Position numbers and translations under genes: made by a program. A model generated the notes under the pieces. That model did not search any database and was not told the DNA's origin. It saw only the letters and a list, made by a program, of their open reading frames with translations. From a virus, in the IMG/VR virus record IMGVR_UViG_3300045930_000098, positions 1-57,232 of that record: a stretch of DNA of 57,232 bases. One strand, given 5' to 3'. Shown piece by piece: positions 6,982 to 53,796 of this stretch. Every line of letters begins with the position of its first letter. Positions within the stretch are counted from its first letter, which is position 1.

Positions 6982-7251
6982 ATGAAAGAGCCGTCTGAGG
7001 CGGCGCTCCGGGTGGCGTTTGGGAAGGCCATCCGACAACTGAGGCATGACCGCAAATTGGCGCAGGAGAACTTGGCCGCATTGGCCCAACTGGATCGGGC
7101 ATACATGGGAGGGCTGGAACGCGGGAAGCACGCTCCGACGATTATCACGGTTCGCAAGATCGCACATGGCCTGCGAATCACCCCAGCCCATATCATGCGT
7201 GAGTGGGAGCGGCATGTGAAGTATCCGCCGAACAACAACGCGAACACGTAG
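6982..7251 (+). CDS. XRE-family transcriptional repressor
   Basis: 89 residues from MKEPSEAALR. The HTH spans roughly residues 12-65 (AIRQLRHDRKLAQENLAALA, DRAYMGGLERGKHAPTIITV, KIAHGLRI), a Cro/C1-type fold without a peptidase or ligand domain. It is one of very few plus-strand genes and faces the recombination operon across an operator-rich region, so it is the best candidate for the lysogeny repressor. The frame is open back to 6910, but that extension reads through the operator repeats and is probably untranslated. Confidence 0.85.
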   Translation: MKEPSEAALRVAFGKAIRQLRHDRKLAQENLAALAQLDRAYMGGLERGKHAPTIITVRKIAHGLRITPAHIMREWERHVKYPPNNNANT

Positions 7252-37796: not shown

Positions 37797-38181
37797 CGTT
37801 GCACAGTACCAGCACTTCCTCAAGAAGTCAACAAGATAGCCGCTCCCCAGTACCGCCGGGACTTGATTTCCCCGTAAATCCCTGAAACTGTTGACTTTCC
37901 GGAATTCCTCGTTCTCCGAGCCGTGATTTTCGCGTAAGTCGTTGAAAGAAGCGGATTTAGCCACTCGCACAGGTTCCGTTGTGCGGGCGGCGAAGCCCTC
38001 GAGGGGCGTCCGGCCTGTAAGGACCCTGGAATCAACGACTTAGCGGGAATCCGGCGGGTGCCACCACCTGCCAGTGGGCGCGGGTGGCGGTCAGGGCGAG
38101 GTATCCAGGTTACCTCGTTTGTTTTCAATCACTTGCGGAAGTCCCATCGAATCAACGACATAGCTAAACCCATCATTCCAT

Positions 38182-38199
38182 TGCACTTACGTAAGTGCA
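38182..38199. repeat. 18-base perfect palindrome
   Basis: TGCACTTACGTAAGTGCA, in AT-rich noncoding DNA upstream of the terminase genes. Candidate binding site for a dimeric protein or part of the packaging/replication site. Confidence 0.7.
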
Positions 38200-38480
38200 T
38201 GAAAACACAGCACATCGCTATCTCATTTGTTTTCAACGCGATACGATTTTTCTTGACATTCGGCACCGACTATGAGATCCCCTGCCCGCGGTCCTTTAGA
38301 ATCATGAGGATAGCCCGATTATTAAAATGCATTAATTTTCACGATTTTTCGCACGGGCGCCCGCGCGTCCGAAAGTACTATCGGCTAACCTATTGATTCC
38401 ATTAAAAACAGAATTGCACGACCTGGCACGAAACCTGGCAGGGGCAGGACGCCGGCAGGGCAGGACGGCAGCAGGCAGGG

Positions 38481-38640
38481 CAGGACGGCAGCAGCAGGGC
38501 AGGCAGGACGGCAGCAGCAGGGCAGGACGGCAGCAGCAGGGCAGGCAGGACGGCAGCAGCAGGGCAGGACGGCAGCAGCAGGGCAGGCAGGACGGCAGCA
38601 GCAGGGCAGGACGGCAGCAGCAGGGCAGGCAGGACGCCGG
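38481..38640. repeat. 42-base tandem repeat array built from CAGGAC/GGCAGCAG words
   Basis: Units start at 38481, 38523, 38565 and 38607; each is a 42-base string mixing CAGGACGGCAGCAGCAGGG and GCAGG. Related words continue on both sides (38441-38660 and 38773-38800). ORFs across it are low-complexity and not believed to be genes. Confidence 0.8.
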
Positions 38641-38799
38641 CAGGGCAGGCAGGGCAGAAGAGAGCACGACGACCAGACCACGGCACGCGCCGCGGCCCCG
38701 AAACGGAACCTCGACCGTTCAGGATCGGAGAAAAACCCCCGACGCTGGTCGTGAAAAGCTTTTCAAGTTGGGAACAGGGCAGGCAGGGCAGGCAGGGCA

Positions 38800-38840
38800 G
38801 GCAAAGCAAAACGCCCGACAGGGTCAACCTGTCGGGCGTT
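38800..38840 (-). terminator. Strong terminator of the two-gene module
   Basis: 13-base perfect stem AACGCCCGACAGG/CCTGTCGGGCGTT with a 5-base loop (38810-38840). On the minus strand it is followed by TTTTGCTTT. Ends transcription after the gene at 38866-39453. Confidence 0.8.
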
Positions 38841-38865
38841 TCAGGGCAGGCAGGCAGGGCGCCTG

Positions 38866-39453
38866 CTAATCGAAGTCAGTCCGGACACCGTCACGATACA
38901 CAATCGACCGAACGTAGCCGTTACCGTCCAATTCGATGGTGCCTGTCCCATGCGTCATCTGAAGCACCATCTCTACTGCCGTCACATGGGAGTACATCTC
39001 TGCTTCGGTCGTGTCCGGACTCTCAAACAAGCACTCTGTCAGCCCTGCCGTATTGGTAAACATCACGGAGTAATGACCGCGTTTCGCCTGCCCTGCGTCC
39101 TGCCCGCCATCCTGCCCTTCCGTACTCATAACCTCCACGATATTCCAGCCCCAACCAACCTCAGCACGCGCGAATTCCTGTGCCCGCTCAAACGTATCGA
39201 ACGCGCCTTCGGCGCACGGGCGCCATGCGTCATACTCGTTCTCTCGCACCATGATAATGAACTGCCCATGCTGCATTGGTTTGGCACACTCCCATTGTTC
39301 GCCACCTTGCACGACCTTAGCAGCACGCCATAGCGTATCCTCCAATTCATCTATCGCATCGGAGATGATACGCTGCACCATAGCGCCGTCAAGATCCTGA
39401 TTGGTAAATAGCTCTTCAACCTCTTGAAGGCGTTTCAATTGCTCTTGTGTCAT
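38866..39453 (-). CDS. Hypothetical protein with repeat-derived insert
   Basis: 195 residues. Helical N-terminus (TQEQLKRLQEVEELFTNQDL), a mid-region with WECAKPMQHGQFIIMVREN, then EGQDGGQDAGQAKRG, which is encoded by the same CAGGAC/GGGCAGG words that fill the nearby noncoding array. Upstream of the ATG lies a run of CAGGA repeats that also serves as ribosome-binding sequence. Codon use is less GC-biased than in the structural genes. Function unknown. Confidence 0.7.
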   Translation of the reverse strand: MTQEQLKRLQEVEELFTNQDLDGAMVQRIISDAIDELEDTLWRAAKVVQGGEQWECAKPMQHGQFIIMVRENEYDAWRPCAEGAFDTFERAQEFARAEVGWGWNIVEVMSTEGQDGGQDAGQAKRGHYSVMFTNTAGLTECLFESPDTTEAEMYSHVTAVEMVLQMTHGTGTIELDGNGYVRSIVYRDGVRTDFD

Positions 39454-39479
39454 GTGGTTTTGTCCTGTCCTGTCCTGTC

Positions 39480-40211
39480 TTACTTCACGGGCGCCGTCAA
39501 GGCGCCCAAGCTAACGAAGTTTTTGCTTCCCCTGCCATGAACCACGATAGCGATATCCTTACGTGTGTCATCGGCGCCTGTCGTGCCACTGCATAGCTTG
39601 CAATTTTCGCACGTGGTGCGGTGTTCCATTTCATCGGAAGCAGGGCACATAATCTCAGTCCACCGCACGGATTCATCAGCCGTACGGACACGGAAGGTTC
39701 TCCAGCCCTTTTCTTTCGCCATGATGTAATCTGCCGCGGAATCACAGCTAGCCATGAAATAGCGCCTGTATGCCTGATACTCAGGACGGCGCCATTGATG
39801 CGTATAGCCCGTCCAACCATCGGACACGACCGCGAGATCAGACACCATCGACAGGGGAAGCAGAATCGGCTCACCATAGGCGCCGAAGCGGATTTTCCGC
39901 CCTGCGAACACCGCGCGGTATCCCTCGCGCGACAGGACAGGGTAGTTACCACGCTGGTAAGCCCGCCATACGCTCAAGGGCGCCTGCCATACGTTCACAT
40001 AGCAATACTCACCGCGGGCAGGACAATCGAAGCACACGATATCGTCCTGCCCTGTCTTAACCGCCGTGGCAGGGTCTATGTCGCGCGGGAGTAGCCATAT
40101 CTGTACCATGTTGCCCGTTTTCGGATTCTCCGTCTCAAGCGTAGCTATAGCCACGATATTGGCGTTCTCATACATCACATATCCTGTCGGGCGGGCGTTT
40201 TTCTTTGTCAT
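39480..40211 (-). CDS. DUF7227-like conserved protein
   Basis: 243 residues from MTKKNARPTG. Shows the ordered motifs of a conserved plasmid/phage family: NPKTGNMVQIWLLPRDIDP, DDIVCFDCPARGEYCYVNVW, RFGAYGEPILLPL, TGYTHQWRRPEYQ, MASCDS, GWRTFRVR, CPASDEMEHRTTCENCKLC and VVHGRG. Paired Cys groups suggest metal sites. Biochemical role of the family is not known to me. Forms a two-gene unit with 38866-39453, bounded by a terminator and repeats. Confidence 0.75.
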   Translation of the reverse strand: MTKKNARPTGYVMYENANIVAIATLETENPKTGNMVQIWLLPRDIDPATAVKTGQDDIVCFDCPARGEYCYVNVWQAPLSVWRAYQRGNYPVLSREGYRAVFAGRKIRFGAYGEPILLPLSMVSDLAVVSDGWTGYTHQWRRPEYQAYRRYFMASCDSAADYIMAKEKGWRTFRVRTADESVRWTEIMCPASDEMEHRTTCENCKLCSGTTGADDTRKDIAIVVHGRGSKNFVSLGALTAPVK

Positions 40212-40226
40212 GAGTCCATTCTGCAC

Positions 40227-40256
40227 TTGACAGGCAGGCGCCGTAAAGAGTACTAA
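40227..40256 (+). promoter_or_regulatory. Plus-strand sigma70-type promoter
   Basis: TTGACA at 40227-40232, an 18-base spacer, then TACTAA at 40251-40256. It faces away from the DUF7227-like gene, toward the iterons and the terminator at 40598-40618, with no ORF between. Confidence 0.6.
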
Positions 40257-40430
40257 TGGGGCGCCGCGCGACTTATGCGCCGGCGCCAGCGCAGGCGGGC
40301 ACCGCTCGAGGTTAAGTTGTTGATCTGCCAGGTCTTAGCTCTAACACTGGCACCATGTGCTGCATTTCAGACGCCGGTGTCCGGTGGCTAAAGCCCGCCC
40401 TGTCAACAGGTTGGACCGAAACGGCGGGTC

Positions 40431-40517
40431 AAGTGCCTGATTCTAAAGGGCAAGCCGCCAAGTGCCTGATTCTAAAGGGCAGGCCCGCAAGTGACTGATT
40501 CCAGGCCGGTTGCACAA
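40431..40517. repeat. Three contiguous 29-base direct repeats (iterons)
   Basis: Copies begin at 40431, 40460 and 40489; the first two share AAGTGCCTGATTCTAAAGGG almost exactly, the third is degenerate (AAGTGACTGATTCC). No spacers, so they are iterons and not CRISPR. Confidence 0.75.
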
Positions 40518-40577
40518 GTCCTTTGGAATCAACGAGGTAACCGGGAGGTAACCGGATACCGCGGGCGCCCCGAAACA

Positions 40578-40618
40578 GGCCCCCAAAAGCGTGGGGGGGC
40601 CGAAAAACGGCCTTTTTT
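40578..40618 (+). terminator. Intrinsic terminator with overlapping alternative hairpin
   Basis: GGCCG-AAAAA-CGGCC-TTTTTT (40598-40618) is a clean terminator. An upstream GGCCCCC (40578-40584) can instead pair with GGGGGCC (40595-40601), which uses bases of the terminator stem, so the two structures exclude each other. Confidence 0.7.
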
Positions 40619-40672
40619 GGAAAGGTGTCACGGAAGTAAAATGCTTCTTGCACTTACGGGCCGCGGGAAAAG

Positions 40673-40870
40673 TCAGGCCGGCTGCACGTCGAGCACGTTA
40701 TAACAGGCGACGTTGCGGTTCTTATCGATCCCGGCATATTCGAGGGTCACGCGGAGGACGGGCTTGAGCGGGCAGGGGCGGATGCGGAGGACAGGGCTGG
40801 CGGGGGCGGGCGTCTGGTCGTCCCACATGAAGTGGTGCGGTTTGCCGGCGAGATAGAACTCTCCGATCAT
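40673..40870 (-). CDS. Small hypothetical protein (65 aa)
   Basis: MIGEFYLAGKPHHFMWDDQT start, then RVTLEYAGIDKNRNVACYNV. Beta-rich and hydrophobic-patterned, which suggests a real small domain, although no strong ribosome-binding site is visible. Isolated between a terminator upstream (41122-41154) and the plus-strand terminator region downstream. Confidence 0.5.
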   Translation of the reverse strand: MIGEFYLAGKPHHFMWDDQTPAPASPVLRIRPCPLKPVLRVTLEYAGIDKNRNVACYNVLDVQPA

Positions 40871-41211
40871 GGCTGGCCTGGAGACAGGGGGGGGCGACGA
40901 CCGATTCAGCCGCCGCCCCTGTTGCCCGATCCCGGCGAAGTCATGCGGGACCGGGTTCGGCGCGGAGGTCCGCTCAACGGGAAGCTGAGATGGACGAGCG
41001 CCGAAGCTTTCATCGCGTGTGCCTTTGCAGATGGTGTGTGCGGGATGTCCGATGACTTCGGAGTGAGGGCATTCCCGTGAGGCCCGGTTGCGGTTCAAGC
41101 GATTGGCCCCAGCATACCAATAAAAAGGCCCGCCAGCATCAAAGCCAGCGGGCCGCGAAAGGACAAACCACATGTCAAAACGAAACGACTACCAGAGACG
41201 GCTACATTGTA
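40871..41211. other. Intergenic stretch with terminator only
   Basis: About 340 bases. Contains the minus-strand terminator at 41122-41154; open frames crossing it on both strands look like noise. No promoter for the 40673-40870 gene was identified. Confidence 0.5.
41122..41154 (-). terminator. Terminator of the early operon
   Basis: On the minus strand GGCCCGC (41154-41148) pairs with GCGGGCC (41133-41127) and is followed by TTTTTATT. Ends the leftward early transcript after the gene at 41212. Confidence 0.75.
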
Positions 41212-41442
41212 TCAGTCTCCGTTATCGACTAGGAGGGCGATGCGCTCCAACTCCATGCCGTGCAGCCTGCGGACCAACTCGTAGCGGCTATCGCGGGTGC
41301 CATCGGCGTTGCCGCAGTGGCAGTCCTCCATGCCGCAGAGAGCGCGGCGCACGCGATTGTAGGTCTTCAGAGAGACGGCGTCTCCGACGTTGGCGCGGAC
41401 CTTGGCCTGCGTCTTGTGAAAGCTATTGGTGAGCACGATCAT
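41212..41442 (-). CDS. Hypothetical protein (76 aa)
   Basis: MIVLTNSFHKTQAKVRANVG start, with CGMEDCHCGNADGTRD in the middle (Cys pair plus Asp/Asn). This 'TNxxHxTxxxVR' layout with CGMxDCxCG is seen in small phage/plasmid proteins of unknown function. Last gene of the early operon. Confidence 0.65.
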   Translation of the reverse strand: MIVLTNSFHKTQAKVRANVGDAVSLKTYNRVRRALCGMEDCHCGNADGTRDSRYELVRRLHGMELERIALLVDNGD

Positions 41443-41453
41443 CTTGCGTCTCC

Positions 41454-41657
41454 TTAGCACCACTGAATCGCCTCGTTGTACATGGCCTCGACGGCGGCAT
41501 CGGAGGAGTCGCGGATGCCACTCCAGTCGTACCCCTGCGGCGGCACGTAGCCGGCGATTCCATACCCGTCCTGAAGATCCCAGAGGGCCTCGCAGAACTC
41601 GTTGCTGCCCTCCTGCCATGCCTTGTAGAGGTACTCCATTCGTTCTTCGCGGCTCAT
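41454..41657 (-). CDS. Hypothetical acidic protein (67 aa)
   Basis: Start at MSREERMEYLYKAWQEG, whose ATG overlaps the preceding stop by four bases; the ATG at 41684 is less likely. Helical with aromatic residues (GYGIAGYVPPQGYDW). No known family. Confidence 0.6.
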   Translation of the reverse strand: MSREERMEYLYKAWQEGSNEFCEALWDLQDGYGIAGYVPPQGYDWSGIRDSSDAAVEAMYNEAIQWC

Positions 41658-41866
41658 GCTTGTTTCTCCCGTTTCTTCATGCATCGTTCACACCGGCAGT
41701 TGTTGACTTGGGCGTTGTGCTTCTTCCAGATGACGCCGCCCGTGTAGCTCTTGCGCTGGGCGCCTCGACGGCGCCCCACTTCCGCATAGAGGATCTGGTC
41801 GGGGATGGTGGACATGTCGAGAGCCTTCGTCCACTTGGCTCCAGGCAGATCGAACGTCGCGCCCAT
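41654..41866 (-). CDS. Hypothetical basic protein (70 aa)
   Basis: MGATFDLPGAKWTKALDMST start; ends with CRCERCMKKREKQA, a Cys-rich basic tail that may bind nucleic acid. ATG shares a base with the preceding stop. Confidence 0.6.
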   Translation of the reverse strand: MGATFDLPGAKWTKALDMSTIPDQILYAEVGRRRGAQRKSYTGGVIWKKHNAQVNNCRCERCMKKREKQA

Positions 41867-42414
41867 CACTTCACCTCCATCAGATCGATCAAGGTAGCCA
41901 CGCTGACGCCGCATGGCGTGACCCATTCGCCGTCGCGCAGGATGTAACGGATGGCTCCGTTCTCGCGTTCCTCGTAGTCGCGCCACTCCTCATCGTCGTA
42001 GAGGACATAGATCGAGCCATCGCCAAACTCCGCGATGGAGCCAAGGCAGGCGCCCTCGTCGGAGGAACCCAGGACGCGACCGTGCAGGGCCAGGATCGCG
42101 CGACGGCAGGCGTCGGCGTCGTCGCCGGCATAGACCTGGACCTGATCGTCCTCGTCGTACTGATCGTGCTTCAGGTACACGTTATAGCGCGGCTCTTCGG
42201 CCATCTCGCGGTCATCGGCCTTCTCATGCTCGACCCACGCATAGACGCACGGGAAGTCCAGGTCTTCGCTGTAGCCCTCCAAGGGCCGCACAGCGCGGGC
42301 GCAGAGGTCGTTGTGGTAGGAGTGATCCTCGAATCGAAGCTCCCGCAGAAACGCGGGAAACTCGATGCTGGGCCACTCGTTGAAGCCGTTCTTGACAGGG
42401 GCTGGAATGCTCAT
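41866..42414 (-). CDS. Hypothetical acidic protein (182 aa)
   Basis: Rich in Asp, Glu and Tyr (KHDQYDEDDQVQVYAGDDAD), with a mixed alpha/beta pattern and no recognised domain. The acidic character recalls DNA-mimic antirestriction proteins, but this is only a composition argument. Overlaps the preceding gene by four bases. Confidence 0.6.
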   Translation of the reverse strand: MSIPAPVKNGFNEWPSIEFPAFLRELRFEDHSYHNDLCARAVRPLEGYSEDLDFPCVYAWVEHEKADDREMAEEPRYNVYLKHDQYDEDDQVQVYAGDDADACRRAILALHGRVLGSSDEGACLGSIAEFGDGSIYVLYDDEEWRDYEERENGAIRYILRDGEWVTPCGVSVATLIDLMEVK

Positions 42415-42620
42415 TGATTCACCTTTGCTTGTTCTTGCGCCACGCGCACGGCTTCGGTCAAAGCCTGCGCCAGCCGGTTCGCCTCTTCAATCGAGAGGCG
42501 GGCGCGGAACCGGGGGATGGTCACCTGAGGGCGCGGGATGGGTTGCGCCTCAGAGCGGTAGGCTTCGGAGTGCTCCTCCGTCACCACGTTGCAGATGTCT
42601 TGAATGTTGATGCGGGCCAT
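42411..42620 (-). CDS. Hypothetical protein (69 aa)
   Basis: MARINIQDICNVVTEEHSEA start; a C-terminal helix (SIEEANRLAQALTEAVRVAQ) suggests a small helical bundle. Start and stop overlap both neighbours. Confidence 0.6.
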   Translation of the reverse strand: MARINIQDICNVVTEEHSEAYRSEAQPIPRPQVTIPRFRARLSIEEANRLAQALTEAVRVAQEQAKVNQ

Positions 42621-42874
42621 TACCTTCCCTCCTGCGCCAGCCGACCGCAGACGCGGCAACGGCGAACGCCGTCGAAGACTCCGACCGGGAACTCTCTGAC
42701 GCAATCGCAGACGGCCTTCTGTTCCTGCTCGTAGACGTAGGCTTCGGCGGCATCGACCAGACCCTCGCCGCCGCACGTCGGGCATTCCAGGGTCACAGCG
42801 GACCCTGGAAGGGTTTCCTCGTAGGTGACGGTCGTAGCGCCCTTGCACTGCGGGCAAACGATGTCAGCGGGCAT
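42620..42874 (-). CDS. DnaJ-type zinc-finger small protein
   Basis: 84 residues with three Cys pairs: CPQCKGA, CPTCGGEG and CRVCGRL. The CxxCxG forms match the DnaJ central zinc-finger pattern, common in tiny phage proteins. Likely binds zinc; partner unknown. Confidence 0.68.
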   Translation of the reverse strand: MPADIVCPQCKGATTVTYEETLPGSAVTLECPTCGGEGLVDAAEAYVYEQEQKAVCDCVREFPVGVFDGVRRCRVCGRLAQEGR

Positions 42875-43127
42875 TCTTGACCTCCAGTGCGGCCCGTAAG
42901 CCGCCGGCCTGAAGCCAGCTATCGACGCCGGCCTGCACCTCGTTCCAGAAGGCCACGTCTTCCACGTCATGGGCGTCATCCTCGAATGCGCCGCCGTAGC
43001 CGTTGGCGTCGACGTAATCGTGGAGCTTGCTGAAGCTGGCAGCATCGCGCGGGATGCAACCCTCCTTCGCGTCTTCGATAATCTCTTGTTTGGCGCGTTC
43101 GATGACGCGCTTCAATTCGTCTGACAT
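42864..43127 (-). CDS. Small hypothetical protein expressed from leaderless promoter
   Basis: 87 residues from MSDELKRVIERAKQEI. Helical N-terminus, acidic middle (FEDDAHDVEDVAFW) and basic end. The -10 element TATAGT ends six bases before the ATG, so the mRNA would have no leader and no room for a ribosome-binding site. First gene of the 43.1-41.2 kb unit. Function unknown. Confidence 0.68.
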   Translation of the reverse strand: MSDELKRVIERAKQEIIEDAKEGCIPRDAASFSKLHDYVDANGYGGAFEDDAHDVEDVAFWNEVQAGVDSWLQAGGLRAALEVKNAR

Positions 43128-43213
43128 GCCCCTACTATACCAGATGCACGCATCTGGCAGCAACATGAATCTGCCCTTGACGGCAGATGCACGCATCTGG
43201 TAAGATTTGAGGC
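43128..43213. promoter_or_regulatory. Mirrored divergent promoters with an operator inside each spacer
   Basis: Two promoters face outward. Minus: TTGCTG (43163-43158), 18-base spacer, TATAGT (43139-43134), ATG six bases later. Plus: TTGACG (43177-43182), 18-base spacer, TAAGAT (43201-43206), ATG seven bases later. Each spacer is a copy of the palindrome CAGATGCACGCATCTG (43141-43156 and 43184-43199). A repressor bound there would block both. Confidence 0.82.
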
Positions 43214-43705
43214 ATGGAAGAGACACCCATCACAACAGTTTGTGAACAATGCTTCGCGCAGAATTTCACGCCGGTTGCCGGCGACAAGACGGACGGGCAA
43301 CTCTGCCCTGAGTGCCAGTCGAAGGGCATGATCATCCGCATCGAGACGGAGCCGAACGAGGAATATCCGCGCTTCGTCGCCGGTCTTTCGATGGCGTCGG
43401 CATGGATTGACGAGGGCGGCGTGTACGGCGAGTGGTACGAGTTCAGCAACGCGGAGTATCAGGGCGCGTTGAAGGAGGACTGGTTCAAGTTGGCCGACCT
43501 CGATGACTCTTCCTTTGAAGCCCTGCAAGCGTCGGTCGAAGTCCGGTCGGCCTTCCTGCGGGAGTTCTGGGCGAAGCACCGGGATACGCTGGTTGCCCGC
43601 GACAACGCCATGAACGAGTGGGAGCAGATCAAGGCCGGTCGCCCGAAGCCGATCCACTGGCTCGACATTCCGGACTTCAAGATCATCCTCACGCGCATGA
43701 GCTAG
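43214..43705 (+). CDS. Zinc-ribbon protein on plus strand, divergent from early operon
   Basis: 163 residues. CEQCFAQNF and CPECQSKGM give a zinc ribbon at residues 10-39; the rest is acidic and aromatic (DEGGVYGEWYEFSNAEYQGA) with a helical end. No HTH, so it is not obviously the repressor of its own operator. Transcript looks leaderless and ends at a perfect terminator 20 bases downstream. Function unknown. Confidence 0.75.
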   Translation: MEETPITTVCEQCFAQNFTPVAGDKTDGQLCPECQSKGMIIRIETEPNEEYPRFVAGLSMASAWIDEGGVYGEWYEFSNAEYQGALKEDWFKLADLDDSSFEALQASVEVRSAFLREFWAKHRDTLVARDNAMNEWEQIKAGRPKPIHWLDIPDFKIILTRMS

Positions 43706-43724
43706 CCTCTGCCCTGCTCGATGA

Positions 43725-43752
43725 AAGCCCTCCCTTCGGGGAGGGCTTTTTG
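43725..43752 (+). terminator. Perfect rho-independent terminator
   Basis: AGCCCTCCC-TTCG-GGGAGGGCT followed by TTTTT: 9-base stem with a UUCG tetraloop, right after the plus-strand zinc-ribbon gene. Confidence 0.92.
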
Positions 43753-43778
43753 CGTTTATGGGGGGAGTTCCTGGCCGA

Positions 43779-44723
43779 TCATCCCGCATCTTCCCGCCTC
43801 ATCGGCTGGACGACGGCCAGAGCCTTTAGTTCGGGGAAGTGGTCCGTCTTGCGGATCAGCGCCTGATTCACCAGGACGTTCTCGCCGCGGACGTACATCT
43901 GCCACGCCTTGACGATCCGCGCCAGCGTCTCGCCGTTGCGGAGCCGCTCTCCGTGTCTCAGGCTGAGAAGCTCGTCACGGAGGACGGCAATCGGATGGTC
44001 CTTCGACGGGAGGTCGATGCCCTCGATCAATGACCGGAAGAATTTCGCGGCCCGCTTCTCATCGATCTGGTGCAGCAGATAGCTCCCAGCGCGGAACGCG
44101 CCCAGAGCGAACGCCTTCCCGCGAAACACCGCCGGCAGCTTGACCAGATGCTGATGGATGCCGGGATGCAGTTCCACGCACTCGCAGACTTGCGCCGCGG
44201 TCGGGAACTGTTCGCCGCCACGGGCGCCATTCCATCCCGTGCCGTTGAAGAAGCCGCGCTCCCACTGCCAGATCACGGTGGCGACGGCGGCTACCTCGCC
44301 GGGTTTCTCGACGCCCTGCACCTTGAGGTCGTCACGCGCCGACCGCTTCCGGTTCTTGTCGAAGCCGGCAAAAGCTGCCGGCGGAAGGCCGATCTGGACG
44401 ATCAGGGGAACGTGCCCCGGCTCTGACCGGATCAGCGCCCAGAGAACATGCTGGCCGTTGATCAGCCGCTCATCGGTATCGAACGCGATCTGCTCGACCC
44501 ACGGTTGCCACTTGCCGGCGTTCATGTCGGCCAAGTAGCGTTTGCCGACTCCCTCGTTCAGGCTTCGCTGAGACTCCTCGTCGCGTTGCAGAAGCCATCT
44601 GGTGGCCTGCTCCTTGGTCACGTCCTGGCGCCAGACCTCCCGCCCGCCCGCCGCGGAGCGGGTGGCCGCATCCATGAAGTCTGGATACTGAACCTTGATT
44701 CGTCCGTTTCGTTTTCGTCCCAT
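43779..44723 (-). CDS. Conserved phage protein of the 'NGQHxL' (ParB-like) type
   Basis: 314 residues from MGRKRNGRIKVQYPDF. YLADMNAGKWQPW, then FDTDERLINGQHVLWALI, LIVQIGLPPAAFAGFDKNRK and RSARDDL match a common phage/plasmid family in which a ParB-like half carries 'LLNGQHRLxAI' and 'DxGxxRTxxD'. The Arg after GQH is Val here. The C-terminal helical half has no known role. Function of the family is unclear. Confidence 0.7.
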   Translation of the reverse strand: MGRKRNGRIKVQYPDFMDAATRSAAGGREVWRQDVTKEQATRWLLQRDEESQRSLNEGVGKRYLADMNAGKWQPWVEQIAFDTDERLINGQHVLWALIRSEPGHVPLIVQIGLPPAAFAGFDKNRKRSARDDLKVQGVEKPGEVAAVATVIWQWERGFFNGTGWNGARGGEQFPTAAQVCECVELHPGIHQHLVKLPAVFRGKAFALGAFRAGSYLLHQIDEKRAAKFFRSLIEGIDLPSKDHPIAVLRDELLSLRHGERLRNGETLARIVKAWQMYVRGENVLVNQALIRKTDHFPELKALAVVQPMRREDAG

Positions 44724-44725
44724 TT

Positions 44726-44902
44726 TCACAACTCCTTCACTTCCAGCCCCGGCCCCAAGCTTTCGAGCCAACGGAAAAGCCGGTCCATCGGCTGGCCCAG
44801 GAACTTCTCCACGACCGGGGCGCACTCCACGATGACGCCGTCTTCATCGGTCCCGACCTCGACCGTCATCTTCGGGTGGCTCACCCAGAGTCGATGCAGC
44901 AT
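44726..44902 (-). CDS. Small hypothetical protein
   Basis: Start uncertain: ATG at 44902 (MLHRLWVSHPKMTVEVG), GTG at 44932 or ATG at 44869 are all in frame. The part MTVEVGTDEDGVIVECAPVV onward is beta-rich and plausible, followed by a helix (FLGQPMDRLFRWLESLGPG). It overlaps the end of the gene at 44844-45125. Confidence 0.5.
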   Translation of the reverse strand: MLHRLWVSHPKMTVEVGTDEDGVIVECAPVVEKFLGQPMDRLFRWLESLGPGLEVKEL

Positions 44903-45125
44903 CCTCGCATTCTCCGCAGTGGATCGTTCCACGTTCCATGATCTGCTCCAGCTTGTTCAGCAGGACGACCGTGTGACCGCATTCGAGTTCGACGTGCGCC
45001 ATCAGCGGCGAACCCAGCAGGACCAGCTTGTCGAGCACTCGCGCGATGCGGCGATGGTGCGGCCCGACCGGCGTGTCGCCTTTCGTCAGATAAAGCCCTT
45101 CACCGACCTTCTTCCGTTTGCTCAC
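44844..45125 (-). CDS. Small Cys/His-containing protein
   Basis: 93 residues from a GTG start with AGGAAG upstream. Middle reads MAHVELECGHTVVLLNKLEQ, then HCGECEDAA: the VELxCGHxV...xCxxC order is a small zinc-binding motif repeated in several proteins of this phage. The final dozen residues look degenerate where the next gene begins. Confidence 0.6.
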   Translation of the reverse strand: MSKRKKVGEGLYLTKGDTPVGPHHRRIARVLDKLVLLGSPLMAHVELECGHTVVLLNKLEQIMERGTIHCGECEDAASTLGEPPEDDGRGRDR

Positions 45126-45354
45126 GCGCTTCCTCCTGCATGGCCCTGATCAGTCCGATGGCAAGCTCCACCGGATCGTGCGACGGCAGAATTCCGCGCC
45201 GCTTTCCCTGCTCCAGAATGTAGTCGCACCGCTCGACGTTGATCTCGACATCGCCCTGGAGCAGCCCGTACATCATGCAGTCTGCGATCACTCGCGCCCC
45301 GGCGGCGCCGTCCACGGCTTCCTGCCATTGCGCTGGTGTGCGAGGAGTCTTCAT
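45100..45354 (-). CDS. Hypothetical helical protein (84 aa)
   Basis: Start at MKTPRTPAQWQEAVDGAAGA, whose ATG overlaps the preceding stop by four bases. Pattern of helices (RVIADCMMYGLLQGDVEINV, ELAIGLIRAMQEEAREQ). Family unknown, but this type of small protein recurs in phage early regions. Confidence 0.65.
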   Translation of the reverse strand: MKTPRTPAQWQEAVDGAAGARVIADCMMYGLLQGDVEINVERCDYILEQGKRRGILPSHDPVELAIGLIRAMQEEAREQTEEGR

Positions 45355-45539
45355 TTGAACGGCCAGTGCGGCTCGTAAGCCGCGTCCCTGCATTTGAGGC
45401 AGAGCACGTCAGCAATCAATACGGCAATCCGCGTCCTGCGGTCTTGCATGTCAGGACCGCTGATAATCACCTCTCCAGGTTCGCCGCATACCTCGCAACG
45501 CCACGGGACGATGCAAGAGTTCCAGTCTATGACTGTCAT
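45351..45539 (-). CDS. Zinc-ribbon microprotein (62 aa)
   Basis: CEVCGEPGEVIISGPDM followed by CLKCRDAAY gives paired CxxC knuckles about 33 residues apart. ATGA overlap with the next gene. Weakly AT-rich gap of 60 bases upstream. Confidence 0.7.
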   Translation of the reverse strand: MTVIDWNSCIVPWRCEVCGEPGEVIISGPDMQDRRTRIAVLIADVLCLKCRDAAYEPHWPFK

Positions 45540-45599
45540 TTTCCCCTTCCCAAAAATTTTTGCCGTTGACTCGAATTCGATCTGAAACCATTAGCCCGG

Positions 45600-45842
45600 T
45601 CACTGCGCCTGCACCTCTTCACGCGCGGCTTCGATGAGCCACCGCTCCAGAATCTGCACGATAGCCCACTTCCCCTTGGGAAACCACTCCGGACGATCCG
45701 TGCTCTCGCGAAGCAGGAAGTAGAGCCAGCCCCACGCCAGAATCGAATCGTTGTTGCCGATCAGCGCCAGGTCCGCGCCCCACATGTCGTGCGCCCAGCG
45801 GTGCAGGCCGGCCTGCGTCTCTTGAGAAAATCTCTCGATCAT
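45600..45842 (-). CDS. Hypothetical protein (80 aa)
   Basis: MIERFSQETQAGLHRWAHDM start, then LALIGNNDSILAWGWLYFLL and WAIVQILERWLIEAAREE. Helical and Trp-rich; the LAWGWLYFLL stretch is hydrophobic enough for a short membrane or buried helix. No family known. Confidence 0.6.
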   Translation of the reverse strand: MIERFSQETQAGLHRWAHDMWGADLALIGNNDSILAWGWLYFLLRESTDRPEWFPKGKWAIVQILERWLIEAAREEVQAQ

Positions 45843-45851
45843 AACGGCCTC

Positions 45852-45929
45852 TCAGCACGCCAGCCAGAACGCCATCACGATCAGCACGATCAGGAGCATG
45901 GCGACGATCTGGTCGTTGGCTTTCTGCAT
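45852..45929 (-). CDS. Single-helix membrane microprotein (25 aa)
   Basis: MQKANDQIVAMLLIVLIVMA followed by FWLAC. Its ATG directly follows the preceding TGA with no gap, and the hydrophobic core is continuous, so translation is credible despite the size. Could act in lysis control or membrane signalling; unproven. Confidence 0.5.
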   Translation of the reverse strand: MQKANDQIVAMLLIVLIVMAFWLAC

Positions 45930-46154
45930 TCAGTTCGCCGCGATCCTGCACAGAGCGCAGGAGACGTGGCCCCCCATCAAAGCCAGCGGACTGCCCTGAC
46001 CGGATAGCAAGATGACGTGGCCGCAGGCGAGGAAGACGATGGCGCCTTCGGGCAGAGGACAGATGACCAAGATCTTGCGATCAAAGGAGCCGAACGGCGG
46101 ATTAAAGCGGACCTCCATCCCGCCGAACCGGAGTTGAAGCTCGTCATCGGACAT
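45930..46154 (-). CDS. Small Cys/His protein (74 aa)
   Basis: Start taken at MSDDELQLRFGGMEVRFNPP (an ATG one codon upstream is equally possible). Contains IVFLACGHVILLSGQG and GHVSCALCRIAAN, again the CGH...CxxC layout. Likely zinc-binding. Confidence 0.6.
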   Translation of the reverse strand: MSDDELQLRFGGMEVRFNPPFGSFDRKILVICPLPEGAIVFLACGHVILLSGQGSPLALMGGHVSCALCRIAAN

Positions 46155-46157
46155 CAT

Positions 46158-46242
46158 CGACGGCCTCTCTTTCTGATGGCGAGTCCAGCGGGAAGAGCGT
46201 CGTGCCTCGCTCCCGGTGGCCCCGAAGGACTCGCCGCAAGGT
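46158..46242. other. Intercistronic gap with 9-base inverted repeat
   Basis: GGCGAGTCC (46178-46186) and GGACTCGCC (46227-46235) form a long-loop hairpin in the early transcript. No ORF. Confidence 0.4.
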
Positions 46243-46581
46243 TCACGCCGCGCCTTTACGTTTCGGCATGACGTGAACGGACCCTTTTTTTGCCGGGATC
46301 TTCAGGTTGTACGCAGTGGGATCGAAGTAGCTGGTGAGCGGAAGCGTCGGATCTTTCCGCCAGATCACCGTCGTATGAAACTCGTTCCAGGCGTCCATCC
46401 CCTTCTGCGTCATCTTGAACCCGTGGCCGGGATAGTATGCGACGTACTCGCGGATCAGCATCGAGCGGAAGGGCCGCTGATCGAACTCCTGCGCCTGATC
46501 GATTCGCAAGTATTCGCGGGACCGCATCTGCATGAGGAACTCCAGCATTCCGTACTGGCGCCGCGAGAGGGTCGTGCTCAT
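46243..46581 (-). CDS. Winged-helix-like hypothetical protein (112 aa)
   Basis: Start at MSTTLSRRQYGMLEFLMQMR, preceded by GAGGGGAAGCC. Helix-strand order (RRQYGMLEFLMQMRSREYLR, IREYVAYYPGHGFKMTQKGM) resembles small winged-helix DNA-binding domains of phages. Basic C-terminus (MPKRKGAA). Confidence 0.6.
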   Translation of the reverse strand: MSTTLSRRQYGMLEFLMQMRSREYLRIDQAQEFDQRPFRSMLIREYVAYYPGHGFKMTQKGMDAWNEFHTTVIWRKDPTLPLTSYFDPTAYNLKIPAKKGSVHVMPKRKGAA

Positions 46582-46790
46582 GGCTTCCCCTCGCGTTTCG
46601 CGCTGGCGAGAACGCTCTTGCTGACGTTGGTGTCGATCAGCGATTCGCCGCCGTTTCTGATGGTGCCGTCCGGTTCCCGCTTGCCGCACTGTACGATGAT
46701 GGCGTCACCCGCGTCGATGCTGGTCTTCCGCTTCACCGCCAGCTTCACGATGTAGAGGATGATGAGCCGCTCCAACCCCAGGACGTTCAT
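46578..46790 (-). CDS. Hypothetical protein (70 aa)
   Basis: MNVLGLERLIILYIVKLAVK start, then KTSIDAGDAIIVQCGKREPD and SLIDTNVSKSVLASA. Four-base overlaps at both ends. No family recognised. Confidence 0.6.
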   Translation of the reverse strand: MNVLGLERLIILYIVKLAVKRKTSIDAGDAIIVQCGKREPDGTIRNGGESLIDTNVSKSVLASAKREGKP

Positions 46791-47113
46791 GCAACCGCCG
46801 CTTTCTGCGCCGCGGGCTGCTTCTCCGCTTTCCATGCCGCGCGTGTGATGGTCTTCTTCTTCGCCTTCGCCCATCTCCGTTTCTGGGCCTCTGCGATCCT
46901 CGCGCGGCCTTCCGGCGAGACATGGTGCTTCGTCGTCGGCTTCATTCCGCCGTTCTGCATCGCCGCCAGTTGCGCCTTGAACTCATCGATCTGCGCCTGC
47001 ATCAACTCGACGGCGTGAACCATTCCAGGCAGGAGCGCCGCCATGCCCATCTGTGCGTACTGCGATAGATTGTCATGTTGTAGTTTCTTCACCCGATCCT
47101 CCCGGTCGGTCAT
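46787..47113 (-). CDS. Coiled-coil, basic-tailed hypothetical protein (108 aa)
   Basis: From MTDREDRVKKLQHDNL; an ATG at 47146 is an alternative. A helix (PGMVHAVELMQAQIDEFKAQ) is followed by a Lys/Arg/Ala tail (ARIAEAQKRRWAKAKKKT) similar to the 'RIAxAQKxRWAxxK' tails of many phage and bacterial small DNA-binding proteins. Upstream 125 bases are slightly AT-rich and may hold a promoter that I could not define. Confidence 0.65.
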   Translation of the reverse strand: MTDREDRVKKLQHDNLSQYAQMGMAALLPGMVHAVELMQAQIDEFKAQLAAMQNGGMKPTTKHHVSPEGRARIAEAQKRRWAKAKKKTITRAAWKAEKQPAAQKAAVA

Positions 47114-47237
47114 CTGTTTTACACGCAGTATTTCAACATGAAACATGCACGGGTGCGTAGCGGGAACGTATCGAGAACCACGGTATATGCACTACACGCC
47201 TCATTTTTGGGCGGTGTATCTTTTGGACACTGAGCTT

Positions 47238-47822
47238 TCATGGAATGACGATCTCCCCGATGTCGGAGGGGAACAGAGCCAGCACAATCGTGTTCTTGCT
47301 CGATGTCAGGTTGCTCAGGCGGGCGTCTTCCTGCTCGTCCAGCCACGTCTCAAATGGCGTATCGCTCTTAGTGCCATTGCATGAGGCGCAGAATAGCCGG
47401 ATGTTCCGCGCGTGGAGCCGCGCCCAGTCTTGATCGTTTCGCGGCGGCGCAAGGTGCTCGATCTGAATGTCGCGTTCGTTCAGAAATGAGTGACCGCATC
47501 CTTGGCACACTCCTTCATGGCCCATCAGAGCGCGGAGGACCGGAACCAGCGATTGGTAGTTCATCGTAACCATGAAGAACTCCCGGCTGGTTCCAGCCTT
47601 GTGGGCCGCGATGGCCGCGCGATTCTGAATGATGGCGAAAGGCCGGTCGGCGTTCTTCCGTTCGTTGCGTTCCTTCTGTTCGCAGGCTTTGCAGACCGGA
47701 TTGAATTCCCACACCGTACCGTGTGGGGTTCTTCGTTGTCGCCCGCGAAAACGAGAGTGATGCTTCCATAATTTGCATGGACCTTGGCACTGGCGTTCGC
47801 ATGGTCGATGTTCGTCGCTCAT
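47238..47822 (-). CDS. HNH endonuclease
   Basis: 194 residues from MSDEHRPCERQ (ATGA overlap with the preceding gene). N-terminal Cys motif (CERQCQGPCK, CKACEQKERN) and a C-terminal HNH: CQGCGHSFLNERDIQIEHLA, then ARNIRLFCASCNGTKSD. Could be a homing-type enzyme or a packaging/replication nuclease. It is far from the terminase genes, unlike HNH packaging partners. Confidence 0.82.
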   Translation of the reverse strand: MSDEHRPCERQCQGPCKLWKHHSRFRGRQRRTPHGTVWEFNPVCKACEQKERNERKNADRPFAIIQNRAAIAAHKAGTSREFFMVTMNYQSLVPVLRALMGHEGVCQGCGHSFLNERDIQIEHLAPPRNDQDWARLHARNIRLFCASCNGTKSDTPFETWLDEQEDARLSNLTSSKNTIVLALFPSDIGEIVIP

Positions 47823-48202
47823 GACGCCCTCGCAATTCGGCATCGGCATGGTCGGCTGAAGTCGGCTTCATATTCATGCAGCCCGCCGATGCTGACGGGC
47901 CGGGTGACCGACACCCAGCCGCTTCCTTGGCAGACCTCGCAGTCGGGATCGCCCAGAGATCTGGGACCGGACTGCTGACGCAACTCGCCTGCGCGGCGGA
48001 TTAGTTCCGCTGGTGTCGGACATCGCTCATCGGTGTCGATCACGTCTGAGATCAGCCGGTGGATGAATGCCTGATCGGTTTCAGAGACACGCCGCAATGC
48101 GCGGCGCATCTCATGCTGGGCTTTCGGCACTTCCGGAAATTTCGGAAGGCCGCTCAGACGCTGGATCTCCTCGTCGTAAAAAGCGTCAAGCAGTTTTCGC
48201 AC
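47819..48202 (-). CDS. Replication accessory-like protein
   Basis: 127 residues from the GTG at 48202, preceded by GGAGG at good spacing; upstream codons in this frame are shadow. FPEVPKAQHEMRRALRRVSE, then CPTPAELIRRAGEL and CEVCQGSGWVSVTRP match small proteins that follow replication initiators in phages ('CPxPxDL' and 'CxxCxGSG' motifs). Possibly a helicase-loader-like or regulator protein; weakly supported. Confidence 0.6.
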   Translation of the reverse strand: MRKLLDAFYDEEIQRLSGLPKFPEVPKAQHEMRRALRRVSETDQAFIHRLISDVIDTDERCPTPAELIRRAGELRQQSGPRSLGDPDCEVCQGSGWVSVTRPVSIGGLHEYEADFSRPCRCRIARAS

Positions 48203-49085
48203 GCCATACCTCCGGATCTTGTCCATACTCGCGGAGGGCATCCCACATGCCGTGTTCCGCCAGCATTCGGTAGTAACGGTCCTGATCGTCGGCGCCTTCG
48301 CGACGGCGCCGTTCCTGCCACGTCTCCCGCGCGATCCCCTTCCGCTCGACCGGCGCGTACTTCCACTCGCCGGAATTGAGCCACCTCCACAACTGCGGGA
48401 TGAATCGATCTCGAGGCAGGGTCGCCCAATGCTCCCGCCAGGAGCCGTGGTTCGCGCGGATGGTCTTGGCGGTCGCCTCAGGGTCTGGCGATGCGGCCAG
48501 GACCGTCCTGGCTTCGGCAACGGCCCTTCCAGGGTTCCCCGGCTCCGGATGGTTGGGGATCAATTCCGCGACGAGGGTTTCAGCTTCAACCGTGGTTGCG
48601 TTGTTTTCAACCGGAGTTGATGCGCCAGCATCCCCAGCCGCCGCCGCCGCCGGCGGGCGAGGCTTCTCAGGCGCCACTACTGTACGGAGCTTGTTATCGG
48701 CGTCGGCGGCGGTATGGTTCCCTTCTTCTGGTTCAAAAACCTCTGGTTCTGTCGGGTGGATTTGAACGCCCTCAGGCGTCGTAGTTGAACGGGGAGGGCG
48801 TTCACCCACCTCCCCGTCTGGCGCCGCAAAACTGAAGCGGTAGGAATTGGAAGAACCCAGGTTGGGAGTGCTGACCACGATGCCGGCCCGCCGCAGTTCC
48901 CGCACCCACCGACGAAGCGTTTCCCCCGGCACGCCCAGCCGTTTCGCGGCGGTGCCCAGACTGGGATTGCACTGGCCGGTTCTCCGGTTGCGAAACGAGA
49001 GAAGGCCCAGTAGTCCTTTCACCGCCCCCGGTGAAAGACCGCTTCCTAGAACCTCTAGAGGCACGCAGACGAATTGACCTTTCAC
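48186..49085 (-). CDS. Replication-initiator-like winged-helix protein
   Basis: 299 residues. N-terminal winged-helix (FVCVPLEVLGSGLSPGAVKG, NPSLGTAAKRLGVPGETLRR, WVRELRRAGIVVSTP), a disordered Pro/Ala/Glu linker and a C-terminal helical region with FIPQLWRWLNSGEWKY. This layout matches phage replisome-organiser/lambda O-type proteins. The next gene, a small accessory, and the absence of a polymerase suggest host-dependent replication. Confidence 0.7.
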   Translation of the reverse strand: MKGQFVCVPLEVLGSGLSPGAVKGLLGLLSFRNRRTGQCNPSLGTAAKRLGVPGETLRRWVRELRRAGIVVSTPNLGSSNSYRFSFAAPDGEVGERPPRSTTTPEGVQIHPTEPEVFEPEEGNHTAADADNKLRTVVAPEKPRPPAAAAAGDAGASTPVENNATTVEAETLVAELIPNHPEPGNPGRAVAEARTVLAASPDPEATAKTIRANHGSWREHWATLPRDRFIPQLWRWLNSGEWKYAPVERKGIARETWQERRRREGADDQDRYYRMLAEHGMWDALREYGQDPEVWRAKTA

Positions 49086-49762
49086 GGCTGCATCCTCCTC
49101 GCCGCACGGCGTTCTCTGCGCCGACGCCGCGCATCGCGTCCAGCTTCAGTACATGCGTTACAGAAATGGCACGTAGGCAAAGCGGCCAACCGGCTGGCCG
49201 GGATCAGTTCGACGTGGCCGCATGACAGAACCAATCCAGCCATCGGCATTTGTCTTTTGGAATTGTTCTTTGCCGTTTGGAAACCGCCAAAGTGAATCGA
49301 GCGGATCGCCCGATTCACGAAATCGCCGGTCGCGCCGGGATCAGAAGGAGGGTCGTATCTGTGCGGAAGTTTGTATTCTCCTATCGCCGCCAGAAACTCA
49401 GCGAAATCATCAGCCGACGACCGTACGCCGTGCTTCAATCGCCGTGCTCGATCCGCTTTCCAATGACACGCCTTGCAGAGCCAGCGGATCTTCAACGCTT
49501 CCGCGTAATCGTCATGATGCGCTTCTATGGGGGGAGAGCTACCTCCGCAGTTTGAGCATCTATCAGGTCGGATGAGAATTCCCGCGCAAAGCGCACCCAT
49601 CACTGCGGCGTGGGCATTGTGTTTCTCCTGGGCCGCTTGGAAAGGGTCAGGATGGTATAGCTGAATACATTGAAAGAGTCTGTAAGCGCCGTTGGAGACG
49701 TTCTTCGCCTTAACGTAACTTGCGGGTGACAAAACAAACGGTATGATCTCTGTAGTAGTCAC
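49082..49762 (-). CDS. HNH-like zinc protein (226 aa)
   Basis: CSNCGGSSPPIEAHHDDYAE, then WLCKACHWKADRAR, is an HNH-type signature with bracketing Cys pairs. The C-terminal third has another Cys pair (CHFCNACTEAG) and an Arg-rich end. Located in front of the replication gene with an ATGA overlap. May be a homing nuclease or an inactive zinc protein; His/Asn positions need alignment. Confidence 0.65.
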   Translation of the reverse strand: MTTTEIIPFVLSPASYVKAKNVSNGAYRLFQCIQLYHPDPFQAAQEKHNAHAAVMGALCAGILIRPDRCSNCGGSSPPIEAHHDDYAEALKIRWLCKACHWKADRARRLKHGVRSSADDFAEFLAAIGEYKLPHRYDPPSDPGATGDFVNRAIRSIHFGGFQTAKNNSKRQMPMAGLVLSCGHVELIPASRLAALPTCHFCNACTEAGRDARRRRRERRAARRMQP

Positions 49763-49815
49763 GAGTCTTCTCCCCTTTAAAAAACCTCATCAGTTTGGCG
49801 GGAAGGTTCGGCTGG

Positions 49816-49858
49816 AACAACGGCGCATCTTCGGAGGTGCGCCGTTTTGCTTTTTCAG
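49816..49858 (+). terminator. Hairpin with T-rich tail, plus strand
   Basis: AACGGCGCA and TGCGCCGTT (49819-49846) form a 9-base stem; TTTTGCTTTTT follows on the plus strand. Lies between two minus-strand genes, so it may be bidirectional or limit antisense transcription. Confidence 0.6.
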
Positions 49859-50250
49859 GGCGCCCGTGCCAGGAGTCGCGACCATTCGACCTTGGCGCGA
49901 TCCTGGTGGCCGTCGAGCCACCTCGCGAGAGACTCCACGCTATCGACCACGCAGATCGCGAGTCGGTAGCCCAGATAGATCTCCCGGTGCTTTGCTGCCT
50001 GCTCTATTGAAGCGCCCTCGCCAGGACGCTTCACCTCAACCAGGAAGCCTGGATAGATTGCGTGGATCGCGCCGTAGTCGGGAGTGCCCTTCTCGACGCC
50101 TTTGATCCAACGCCTGCCATCAACCGATTTGAACGTGCCGGCGTGCAGCCGCGCCGGCCAGTACGACCGGAGCCGCAACAGATCGAGACACGCCTTCTCG
50201 ATGTCGTTCTCGACCAGCTTCACCCGCGGAGCCTTGAGGCGGAAGGTCAT
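49855..50250 (-). CDS. VRR-NUC domain nuclease
   Basis: 131 residues from MTFRLKAPRVKLVENDIEKA. E of VENDIE, then GTPDYGAIHAIYPGFLVEVK (D, ExK core) and EQAAKHREIYL are the VRR-NUC/Holliday-junction-resolvase-like motif order. Probably a structure-specific or resolvase-type nuclease in replication or recombination. Confidence 0.85.
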   Translation of the reverse strand: MTFRLKAPRVKLVENDIEKACLDLLRLRSYWPARLHAGTFKSVDGRRWIKGVEKGTPDYGAIHAIYPGFLVEVKRPGEGASIEQAAKHREIYLGYRLAICVVDSVESLARWLDGHQDRAKVEWSRLLARAP

Positions 50251-50450
50251 CAGCCGCCGCTCCTCTCCTGCGACTCGTCGCGGACCTCGATGCCCAGCCG
50301 GACGCAGAACGGGGCGAGCTCCGCCCACTCCTCGCCGCTGAGATCGAACACGCCGACCGTGTGCCACTCGCCGCCGCGCCGGATCTTCAAGCGGCCATGC
50401 ACGGACTCGTCGGGCCGCGTGCGGACGACGAATCTGGCCTCGACGCTCAT
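50250..50450 (-). CDS. Small hypothetical protein (66 aa)
   Basis: MSVEARFVVRTRPDESVHGR start, then VGVFDLSGEEWAELAPF. Beta-rich N-terminus and a helix; overlaps both neighbours. Family not recognised. Confidence 0.6.
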   Translation of the reverse strand: MSVEARFVVRTRPDESVHGRLKIRRGGEWHTVGVFDLSGEEWAELAPFCVRLGIEVRDESQERSGG

Positions 50451-50566
50451 GAGTGCCGCCGGAAGCGCAGGAGCCGCACGATGGCGACTGCGATCACCGC
50501 GCCGATAAACACCCAGATCGCGACATCGAGGACGATGGCGATGCTGGCGAGGTCTTCGTTGGGCAT
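50447..50566 (-). CDS. Single-helix membrane microprotein (39 aa)
   Basis: MPNEDLASIAIVLDVAIWVF, IGAVIAVAIVRLLRFRRHS: one membrane helix with a basic cytoplasmic end. Tight TGATG and ATGA overlaps with both neighbours support translation. Function unknown; similar tiny membrane proteins in phages act in lysis or host envelope changes. Confidence 0.55.
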   Translation of the reverse strand: MPNEDLASIAIVLDVAIWVFIGAVIAVAIVRLLRFRRHS

Positions 50567-51909: not shown

Positions 51910-52235
51910 GCGGTGACCTCCTTGATCAGTTCCTCGATGGCTTTCTGACAGTGCAGGCAGAGGCCGTCGAGTGTGTCGAGCCGTAGATCGATCCGCCCGC
52001 GGCGGTCGTTGATATGCACCTCGCGCCCGCAGAAGGTCTGGCTCACGGTGAACGCCTTGACGTGCCGCACGCCGTTCTGCGCGACCGTGATCAGTTCGCC
52101 ATCGCCCACGACGACCTTGCGGAGAGCGTCAACCTGAATGCGCCGCACCTCGAGATCGGACTTGCGCGTCAGGCAGGCCATGCAGGCCAGCAGAGGCTCC
52201 GGAATCGGGTTATTGCAGGACCGGCAGACTCTCAT
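51906..52235 (-). CDS. Zinc-ribbon hypothetical protein (109 aa)
   Basis: Start at MRVCRSCNNPIPEPLLACMA, with GGAGGAACTCCA before it. Two Cys pairs at the N-terminus (CRSCNN, CMACLT) and one near the end (CLHCQKAIEEL). Beta-rich middle. Possibly a zinc-binding regulator. Overlaps the beta-helix gene by four bases. Confidence 0.65.
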   Translation of the reverse strand: MRVCRSCNNPIPEPLLACMACLTRKSDLEVRRIQVDALRKVVVGDGELITVAQNGVRHVKAFTVSQTFCGREVHINDRRGRIDLRLDTLDGLCLHCQKAIEELIKEVTA

Positions 52236-52316
52236 TGGAGTTCCTCCTCTGCCATCGCGCAGAAGAACGAGCAATCGGGCACGACCTCGTCGTGCTTGCC
52301 CTCGTCCGGTCGAAGC

Positions 52317-53620: not shown

Positions 53621-53637
53621 AAAGAGCGGCTTCTTGG

Positions 53638-53796
53638 TCACGGCTTCCTCCAGACCCAGCCCAGCAGGAGCCAATACCAGAACCGGCGCCAGAGGTTCGG
53701 CATCGGGCGCGTGCATTGAATGGTCAGGCACGATGATGCGTGCAGGACGGAGCGCACGGGCGGCTCCGTGATCAGCAGATGCCAGTCCTGCGTCAT
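53638..53796 (-). CDS. Small Trp-rich membrane-associated protein (52 aa)
   Basis: Read from the gap between annotated genes: MTQDWHLLITEPPVRSVLHA, ending PMPNLWRRFWYWLLLGWVWRK. The PNxWRRFWxxxLLGW end is a pattern seen in small phage and plasmid proteins; it may form an amphipathic or membrane helix. ATGA overlap with the HNH gene. Confidence 0.6.
   Translation of the reverse strand: MTQDWHLLITEPPVRSVLHASSCLTIQCTRPMPNLWRRFWYWLLLGWVWRKP

Follow-up and report, generated by a model that had tools for sequence, protein, structure and literature searches.

The immB regions of the telomere phages PY54, N15 and phiKO2 carry a 16-bp palindromic operator between divergent genes, and their cI and cro mRNAs are reported to be leaderless (PMC4488713). 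In PY54, Cro binds the 16-bp palindrome and both of the divergent immunity genes are leaderless (PMC4488713). Another family of short control elements comes from the Cluster K mycobacteriophages, which have a 13-bp asymmetric sequence thought to initiate translation (SAS) and, upstream of it, a pair of 17-bp repeats (ESAS) (PMC3203893). Bacteria too have leaderless genes, in which a TANNNT box precedes the start by approximately 12 bp; the phyla in which they make up a substantial share include Acidobacteria, with 13.3% on average (PMC3160421).

The operator-promoter module described here is a new variant of this known phage operator logic, and it is real, conserved and beyond chance. It mixes features of the PY54 and Cluster K systems and belongs to neither type, because its genes are not repressors and its repeated element lies in the promoter instead of at the ribosome site. 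Its nearest precedent is the immB region of PY54. Both are palindromic operators between divergent, apparently leaderless genes of temperate phages; however, the divergent genes of immB encode two repressors, whereas one of those in the module encodes an unassigned zinc-ribbon-like protein and the other a small accessory protein, and units of the type described here are reiterated before other operons in related phages. With SAS and ESAS (PMC3203893) the module shares short inverted-repeat elements that precede a subset of non-structural genes and are kept while the genes vary. Unlike them, its dyad sits inside the promoter and a Shine-Dalgarno (SD) site is not needed, and in place of a 13-bp asymmetric start sequence there are just 6-8 unconserved nt between the -10 box and the ATG. 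The spacing of the box matches that of the bacterial leaderless genes, but those are mostly host genes, and a dyad that supplies an extended -10 is particular to the phage module (PMC3160421).

The window, that is, the whole stretch of DNA that was analyzed, is a 57,232-b virus record from IMG/VR. It encodes a lambda-type terminase, a portal, a head protease and a major head protein, together with RecE- and RecT-like proteins and a replication initiator-like protein. The phage looks temperate, since a serine-integrase-like protein and a CI-type helix-turn-helix (HTH) protein are among its predicted products. All 13 of the best bacterial matches to its terminase (51-57% identity) are from Acidobacteriota, mostly Bryobacterales/Solibacteraceae, which places the probable host in the Acidobacteriota (Bryobacterales). 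The minus strand carries almost all of the called genes, and the plus-strand gene at 43214 is among the few exceptions (Table 1). A ParB-like nuclease-domain protein (43779-44729) adjoins the dyad sites, and a 77-aa protein at 1498-1731 consists of little beyond a LuxR/GerE DNA-binding domain. A gene for a PAPS-reductase-like protein (52317-53186), likely an auxiliary metabolic or DNA-modification gene, had no counterpart found in the relatives G2 or G17 described below.

Table 1. Positions of the principal features in the window.
Feature	Position	Strand	Description
XRE/Cro-CI type HTH protein	6982..7251	+	89 aa; candidate binder of the dyad
Remainder of minus operon	38866..42874	-	small proteins, mostly with SD
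First gene of minus operon	42864..43127	-	87-aa protein; probably leaderless
Minus promoter -10	43134..43139	-	TATAGT; TG from O1 (TGG-TATAGT)
Minus promoter spacer	43140-43157		18 bp, CCAGATGCGTGCATCTGG
Operator O1	43140..43157		CCAGATGC-AC-GCATCTGG; fills minus-promoter spacer; orthologous sites in G2, G17, L435
Operator O2	43157..43174		weak copy, GCAGCAACATGAATCTGC; overlaps minus -35
Minus promoter -35	43158..43163	- (complement)	TTGCTG
Plus promoter -35	43177..43182	+	TTGACG
Plus promoter spacer	43183-43200		18 bp, GCAGATGCACGCATCTGG
Operator O3	43183..43200		GCAGATGC-AC-GCATCTGG; fills plus-promoter spacer
Plus promoter -10	43201..43206	+	TAAGAT; TG from O3 (TGG-TAAGAT)
Plus gene	43214..43705	+	163-aa CxxC...CxxC protein, zinc-ribbon-like; probably leaderless
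Terminator hairpin	43724..43749		AAAGCCCTCCC-TTCG-GGGAGGGCTTT; end of plus gene
Integrase	55854-57224		serine-recombinase type

The first-pass annotation described two divergent promoters, each made of a -35, an 18-bp spacer filled by a palindrome, a -10 and a start codon 6 or 7 nt further on, and the promoters were located as it said. The ATG follows the -10 by 6 nt on the minus strand (43127-43125) and by 7 nt on the plus strand (43214). Its palindrome, given as CAGATG(CACG)CATCTG, is a genuine dyad, but the 4-bp loop is not: arms of 7-8 bp flank a 2-bp AC centre, so that the spacer dyad of both promoters reads (C/G)CAGATGC-AC-GCATCTGG. The two exact 16-mers are the sole matches to CAGATGCNNGCATCTG in the window when up to three mismatches are allowed. 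Shuffled sequences give by chance a mean of 4 imperfect dyad matches, and two exact ones are not expected. Sixty first-order simulations of the window yielded no pair of near-identical 7-2-7 palindromes within 200 bp, of which the window itself has one. The resemblance of the two 40-bp units extends outside the dyad as well (TTGnnG... GGTAnnnT... GGCATG).

Two features had been overlooked. The first is the contact with RNA polymerase: the conserved TG that closes the dyad lies one base ahead of the -10 and thereby makes an extended -10 (TGnTANNNT) in 5/5 units found among the three closer phages (the window phage, G2 and G17). This TG belongs to the dyad and to the extended -10 at once, and thus the operator is fused to a polymerase contact. 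The second is O2, a third copy of the dyad, offset from O1 by exactly 17 bp, as are the second sites in relatives. Its score alone is unremarkable (approximately 7e-5 of window positions reach an equal one), and a weak copy in G17, CCAGCAACATGCATCTGC, is nearly identical to it and has the same 17-bp offset. Across phages the dyad follows the consensus CA[G/C]ATGC-NN-GCAT[C/G]TG, 16-18 bp long, with arms that are kept and a central 2 bp that varies (AC, AG, GC, AT, TT). Conserved arms around a drifting centre are as expected of a site for a protein dimer, which the sequences would fit.

The starts of the two genes stand apart from the rest of the window. Of the 70 called window genes, 2, precisely the two at issue, have a TANNNT box whose end lies 5-9 nt ahead of the start codon, as do 1.2% of random positions; a core SD is found in 43 of the 70. 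In both genes a -10 box precedes the start by about 12 nt (its first T is 12-14 nt before the ATG) and there is no normally spaced SD, the GAGG ahead of the plus ATG being just 1 nt away from it. Between G2 and G17, 14/18 positions of the operator and 82/90 at the beginning of the gene (its first 90 nt) are identical, compared with 3/8 of the spacer from -10 to ATG, so that no leader element is conserved there. From the spacing, both mRNAs are probably leaderless. An in-frame TGA two codons before the ATG of the plus gene rules out an upstream extension; in the minus gene of the window and in G2 and G17 the upstream frame is open, so that a longer, leadered product is possible in these three by frame alone.

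The proposal of mirrored promoters had been staked in part on the conservation of palindrome and spacing in relatives, and it withstood that comparison: palindrome, promoter register and -10 to ATG spacing are kept across four phages. At least eight units are known in at least four phages (window 2, G2 1, G17 2, L435 3), with a dyad ahead of each -10 and the ATG 6-8 nt past it in 8/8. The relative G2 (57,687 b) shares 37,997 b of identical sequence with the window and is 75-90% alike across most of the remainder. It has adjacent dyads at 4780, orthologous to O1, and at 4797, on a single minus promoter (TATACT, ATG 8 nt on). This unit heads the same operon as in the window, with orthologs of the genes at 39480, 41654, 41866, 42411 and 42620 behind the shared operator; the first gene differs, the plus gene is absent and a near-identical terminator hairpin directly abuts the operators. 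G17 (54,993 b; terminase 73%) has two promoters before two different genes, with sites orthologous to O1 at 32324 and 32661, a second site at +17 in each, and the ATG 8 and 7 nt past the -10; orthologs of 39480 and 41654 also lie behind its operator. In the window, G2 and G17 the sites therefore head one common operon despite the differing first gene.

The most distant example, L435 (8,493 b; terminase 33% identical), has three units, again with sites orthologous to O1, of the dyad form CA[C/G]ATGC-NN-GCATGTG and with the ATG 6-7 nt past the -10. Two of them directly follow a terminator, and one heads an operon with an ortholog of window gene 41654. The spacer measures 18 bp in both window promoters and in those G2 and G17 units that were aligned, and by hand count 17 and 19 bp in two of the L435 units. 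A further gene in this contig (L435:140-200; MFRVVKTL...) has its ATG 6 nt after TGGTAGAGT; the spacer holds no dyad, and a weak one lies about 75 b upstream. Its recurrence before small accessory genes in three other phages makes the operator-promoter unit look like a reusable control element.

Elsewhere in the 5.1 Mb of examined loci a looser version of the unit was absent. The motif is missing from the wider-family members G7, G9, G11, G12 and G15, and their own palindromes were rejected as operators, being coding hairpins or chance occurrences. A scan of IMG/VR for the exact dyad returned 118 places, about the chance level for the estimated size of the collection, and the full promoter register was absent from all of these except two in contig L020. 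G2 and L020 were the sole real cases in a scan for adjacent dyads. A relaxed promoter pattern found in IMG/VR mostly a coding motif of unrelated phages, with L435 among the matches listed.

Recruitment of polymerase by a protein at O2/O1, which would make the dyad an activator site, is conceivable at promoters with a poor -35. Such a -35 (CATCTG) is found in G2 and in the first G17 unit, which may therefore depend on an activator, and O2 overlaps the -35 in every O1+O2 unit. Against this, O2 is missing from the plus promoter and from the L435 units, both of which have a good -35 (TTGACG, TTGACA), a promoter with an extended -10 does not require a -35, and O1 lies in the core spacer, overlapping the extended -10, which is a typical position for a repressor. 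MerR-type promoters have an over-long spacer of 19-20 bp, and that of the module is 18 bp. Activation is thus an unlikely role for the dyad. Far less credible still is a function in DNA transactions (as parS-like sites, replication iterons, attP or modification sites) with a chance location in promoters. The adjacent ParB-like gene and the serine-type integrase would suit it, but G2 and G17 keep the sites without the ParB-like gene, the integrase is 12 kb and the replication initiator 5 kb away from them, and the constant placement of the dyad relative to -10 and ATG in 8/8 units would be left unaccounted for.

The plus gene appears to hold the explanation for the mirror symmetry. As the first-pass annotation had noted, its 163-aa product has no recognised family: no family match was above the cut-off. 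No relatives were found in the phage collection, 16 related contigs and 250 Bryobacterales genomes, nor in a peptide-pattern scan of IMG/VR, and its AlphaFold2 model (pLDDT 37) is too low in confidence for use. G2 runs from the terminator through O2 and O1 to the operon. In the window, the plus gene and then O3 stand between the same hairpin and O2, and O1 and the operon follow as in G2. The simplest account of this arrangement would be that the plus gene was brought in together with an inverted copy of the unit. The sites of the relatives serve a single direction, so the mirror symmetry is peculiar to the window phage, and it probably reflects the insertion of a co-regulated accessory gene. 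Like a moron, the plus gene is an independent unit, with its own promoter and terminator, set between genes and between conserved landmarks (O2 and the terminator) and missing in relatives. Unlike a moron, it has the same GC content as the neighbouring operon (0.600 vs 0.597 for 38866-43127) and bears the phage's own operator, which suggests that it is co-regulated.

A compact symmetric switch, as had been proposed for this locus, is not supported by these observations: neither gene is regulator-like, the relatives are one-directional and the two promoters would be on or off together, not mutually exclusive. The one-way sites, the moron-like plus gene and the lack of a regulator-like gene look instead like co-repression of accessory genes. 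A lambda-like immunity switch, with the divergent genes as antagonistic regulators under O1-O3, is very improbable. Three operator copies do overlap the divergent promoters, as in lambda, and both starts appear leaderless, as for cI and cro of PY54 (PMC4488713). However, neither product matches an HTH family as antagonistic repressors would, G2 and G17 keep the operator and lack the plus gene, two (G17) or three (L435) units precede further unrelated genes, and the CI-type gene of the window lies elsewhere.

The protein that binds the dyad is most likely encoded by the phage. The leading candidate, a tentative one, is the XRE protein. Its counterparts in G2 (100% identical) and G17 (51% identical) share its DRAYMGGLERGKH recognition stretch. 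Neither the dyad motif nor this stretch is present in G7, G11 and G12; a near match to the stretch occurs in G9, which lacks the motif. The motif is also absent from relatives whose XRE proteins are 35-41% identical, and no CAGATGC dyad lies near the XRE gene. Upstream of that gene (6864-6881) in the window, G2 and G3 is CCTACGTAGG, which may be the real XRE operator. It shares a TACGTA core with TGCACTTACGTAAGTGCA (38182-38199), an 18-bp perfect palindrome close to the presumed cos end. Two other binders were rejected: the ParB-like neighbour, because its gene is absent from G2 and G17, and the 77-aa LuxR-type protein, because it was not found in G17.

A host global regulator such as LexA could bind the dyad in place of a phage protein, so that the genes would track host stress. 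Phages often borrow host regulators, and LexA-type sites are short dyads. Yet 11 sites with at most one mismatch were found in approximately 63 Mb of nine host-like Acidobacteria genomes, where about 10 are expected by estimate, and none of 250 Bryobacterales genomes contains the promoter unit, nor any of 396 Acidobacteriota genomes a looser version of it. Control by the host is accordingly quite improbable, a little more so than activation.

We consider it likely that the locus is a phage operator-promoter module that co-controls accessory gene operons, with a dyad bound by a dimer and with leaderless first genes. A dimeric DNA-binding protein would bind the 16-18 bp dyad, which fills the spacer between -35 and -10 and gives the TG of the extended -10. 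From this position in the promoter core, the bound dimer would exclude RNA polymerase and repress. When the site is free, transcription would begin 6-9 nt past the -10, at the AUG or within about 1 base of it; the mRNA of the first gene would be leaderless, and the later genes of the operon would rely on SD sites. In the window phage, the minus operon would be driven by the ancestral unit, made up of O1 and the weak O2. Between O2 and the old terminator, a plus-strand gene would then have been set, together with a terminator of its own and an inverted unit, O3, creating the mirror symmetry. As O3 would be an inverted copy of the ancestral unit, one protein would control both directions jointly.

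A more doubtful suggestion, though one that may be worth entertaining, is that operator, extended -10 and leaderless start form a transferable cassette of approximately 35-45 bp, placed before varied accessory genes and serving, as an inverted copy, the gene inserted in the window. If so, a captured gene would fall under one phage repressor, and a leader and SD would be dispensable. Almost nothing is known about gene control in uncultivated phages that probably infect Acidobacteriota. If the module is read correctly, a tiny piece of DNA that fuses operator, polymerase contact and translation start brings new genes under a single repressor and provides a searchable signature for co-regulated accessory genes in such phages. 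It also makes testable any tie of leaderless starts in phages to operators in the promoter core.

The window record itself looks like an almost circular assembly whose ends differ a little, because these (1-174 and 57059-57232) overlap by approximately 174 b in G2 coordinates. Its identity to G2 (3300045952_000066) is 99.997% over positions 1-37997 and 75-90% over 37998-57232, and the G1 and G2 contigs both stop exactly at 37,997, approximately 320 b upstream of the small terminase. This boundary is either a cos end or a recent recombination or assembly boundary. Tandem repeats of the GGCAGGACGGCAGCAGCAGG type lie beside the presumed cos end at 38430-38860, and the equivalent end of G2 carries another repeat, GGGCTGGCGTCG.
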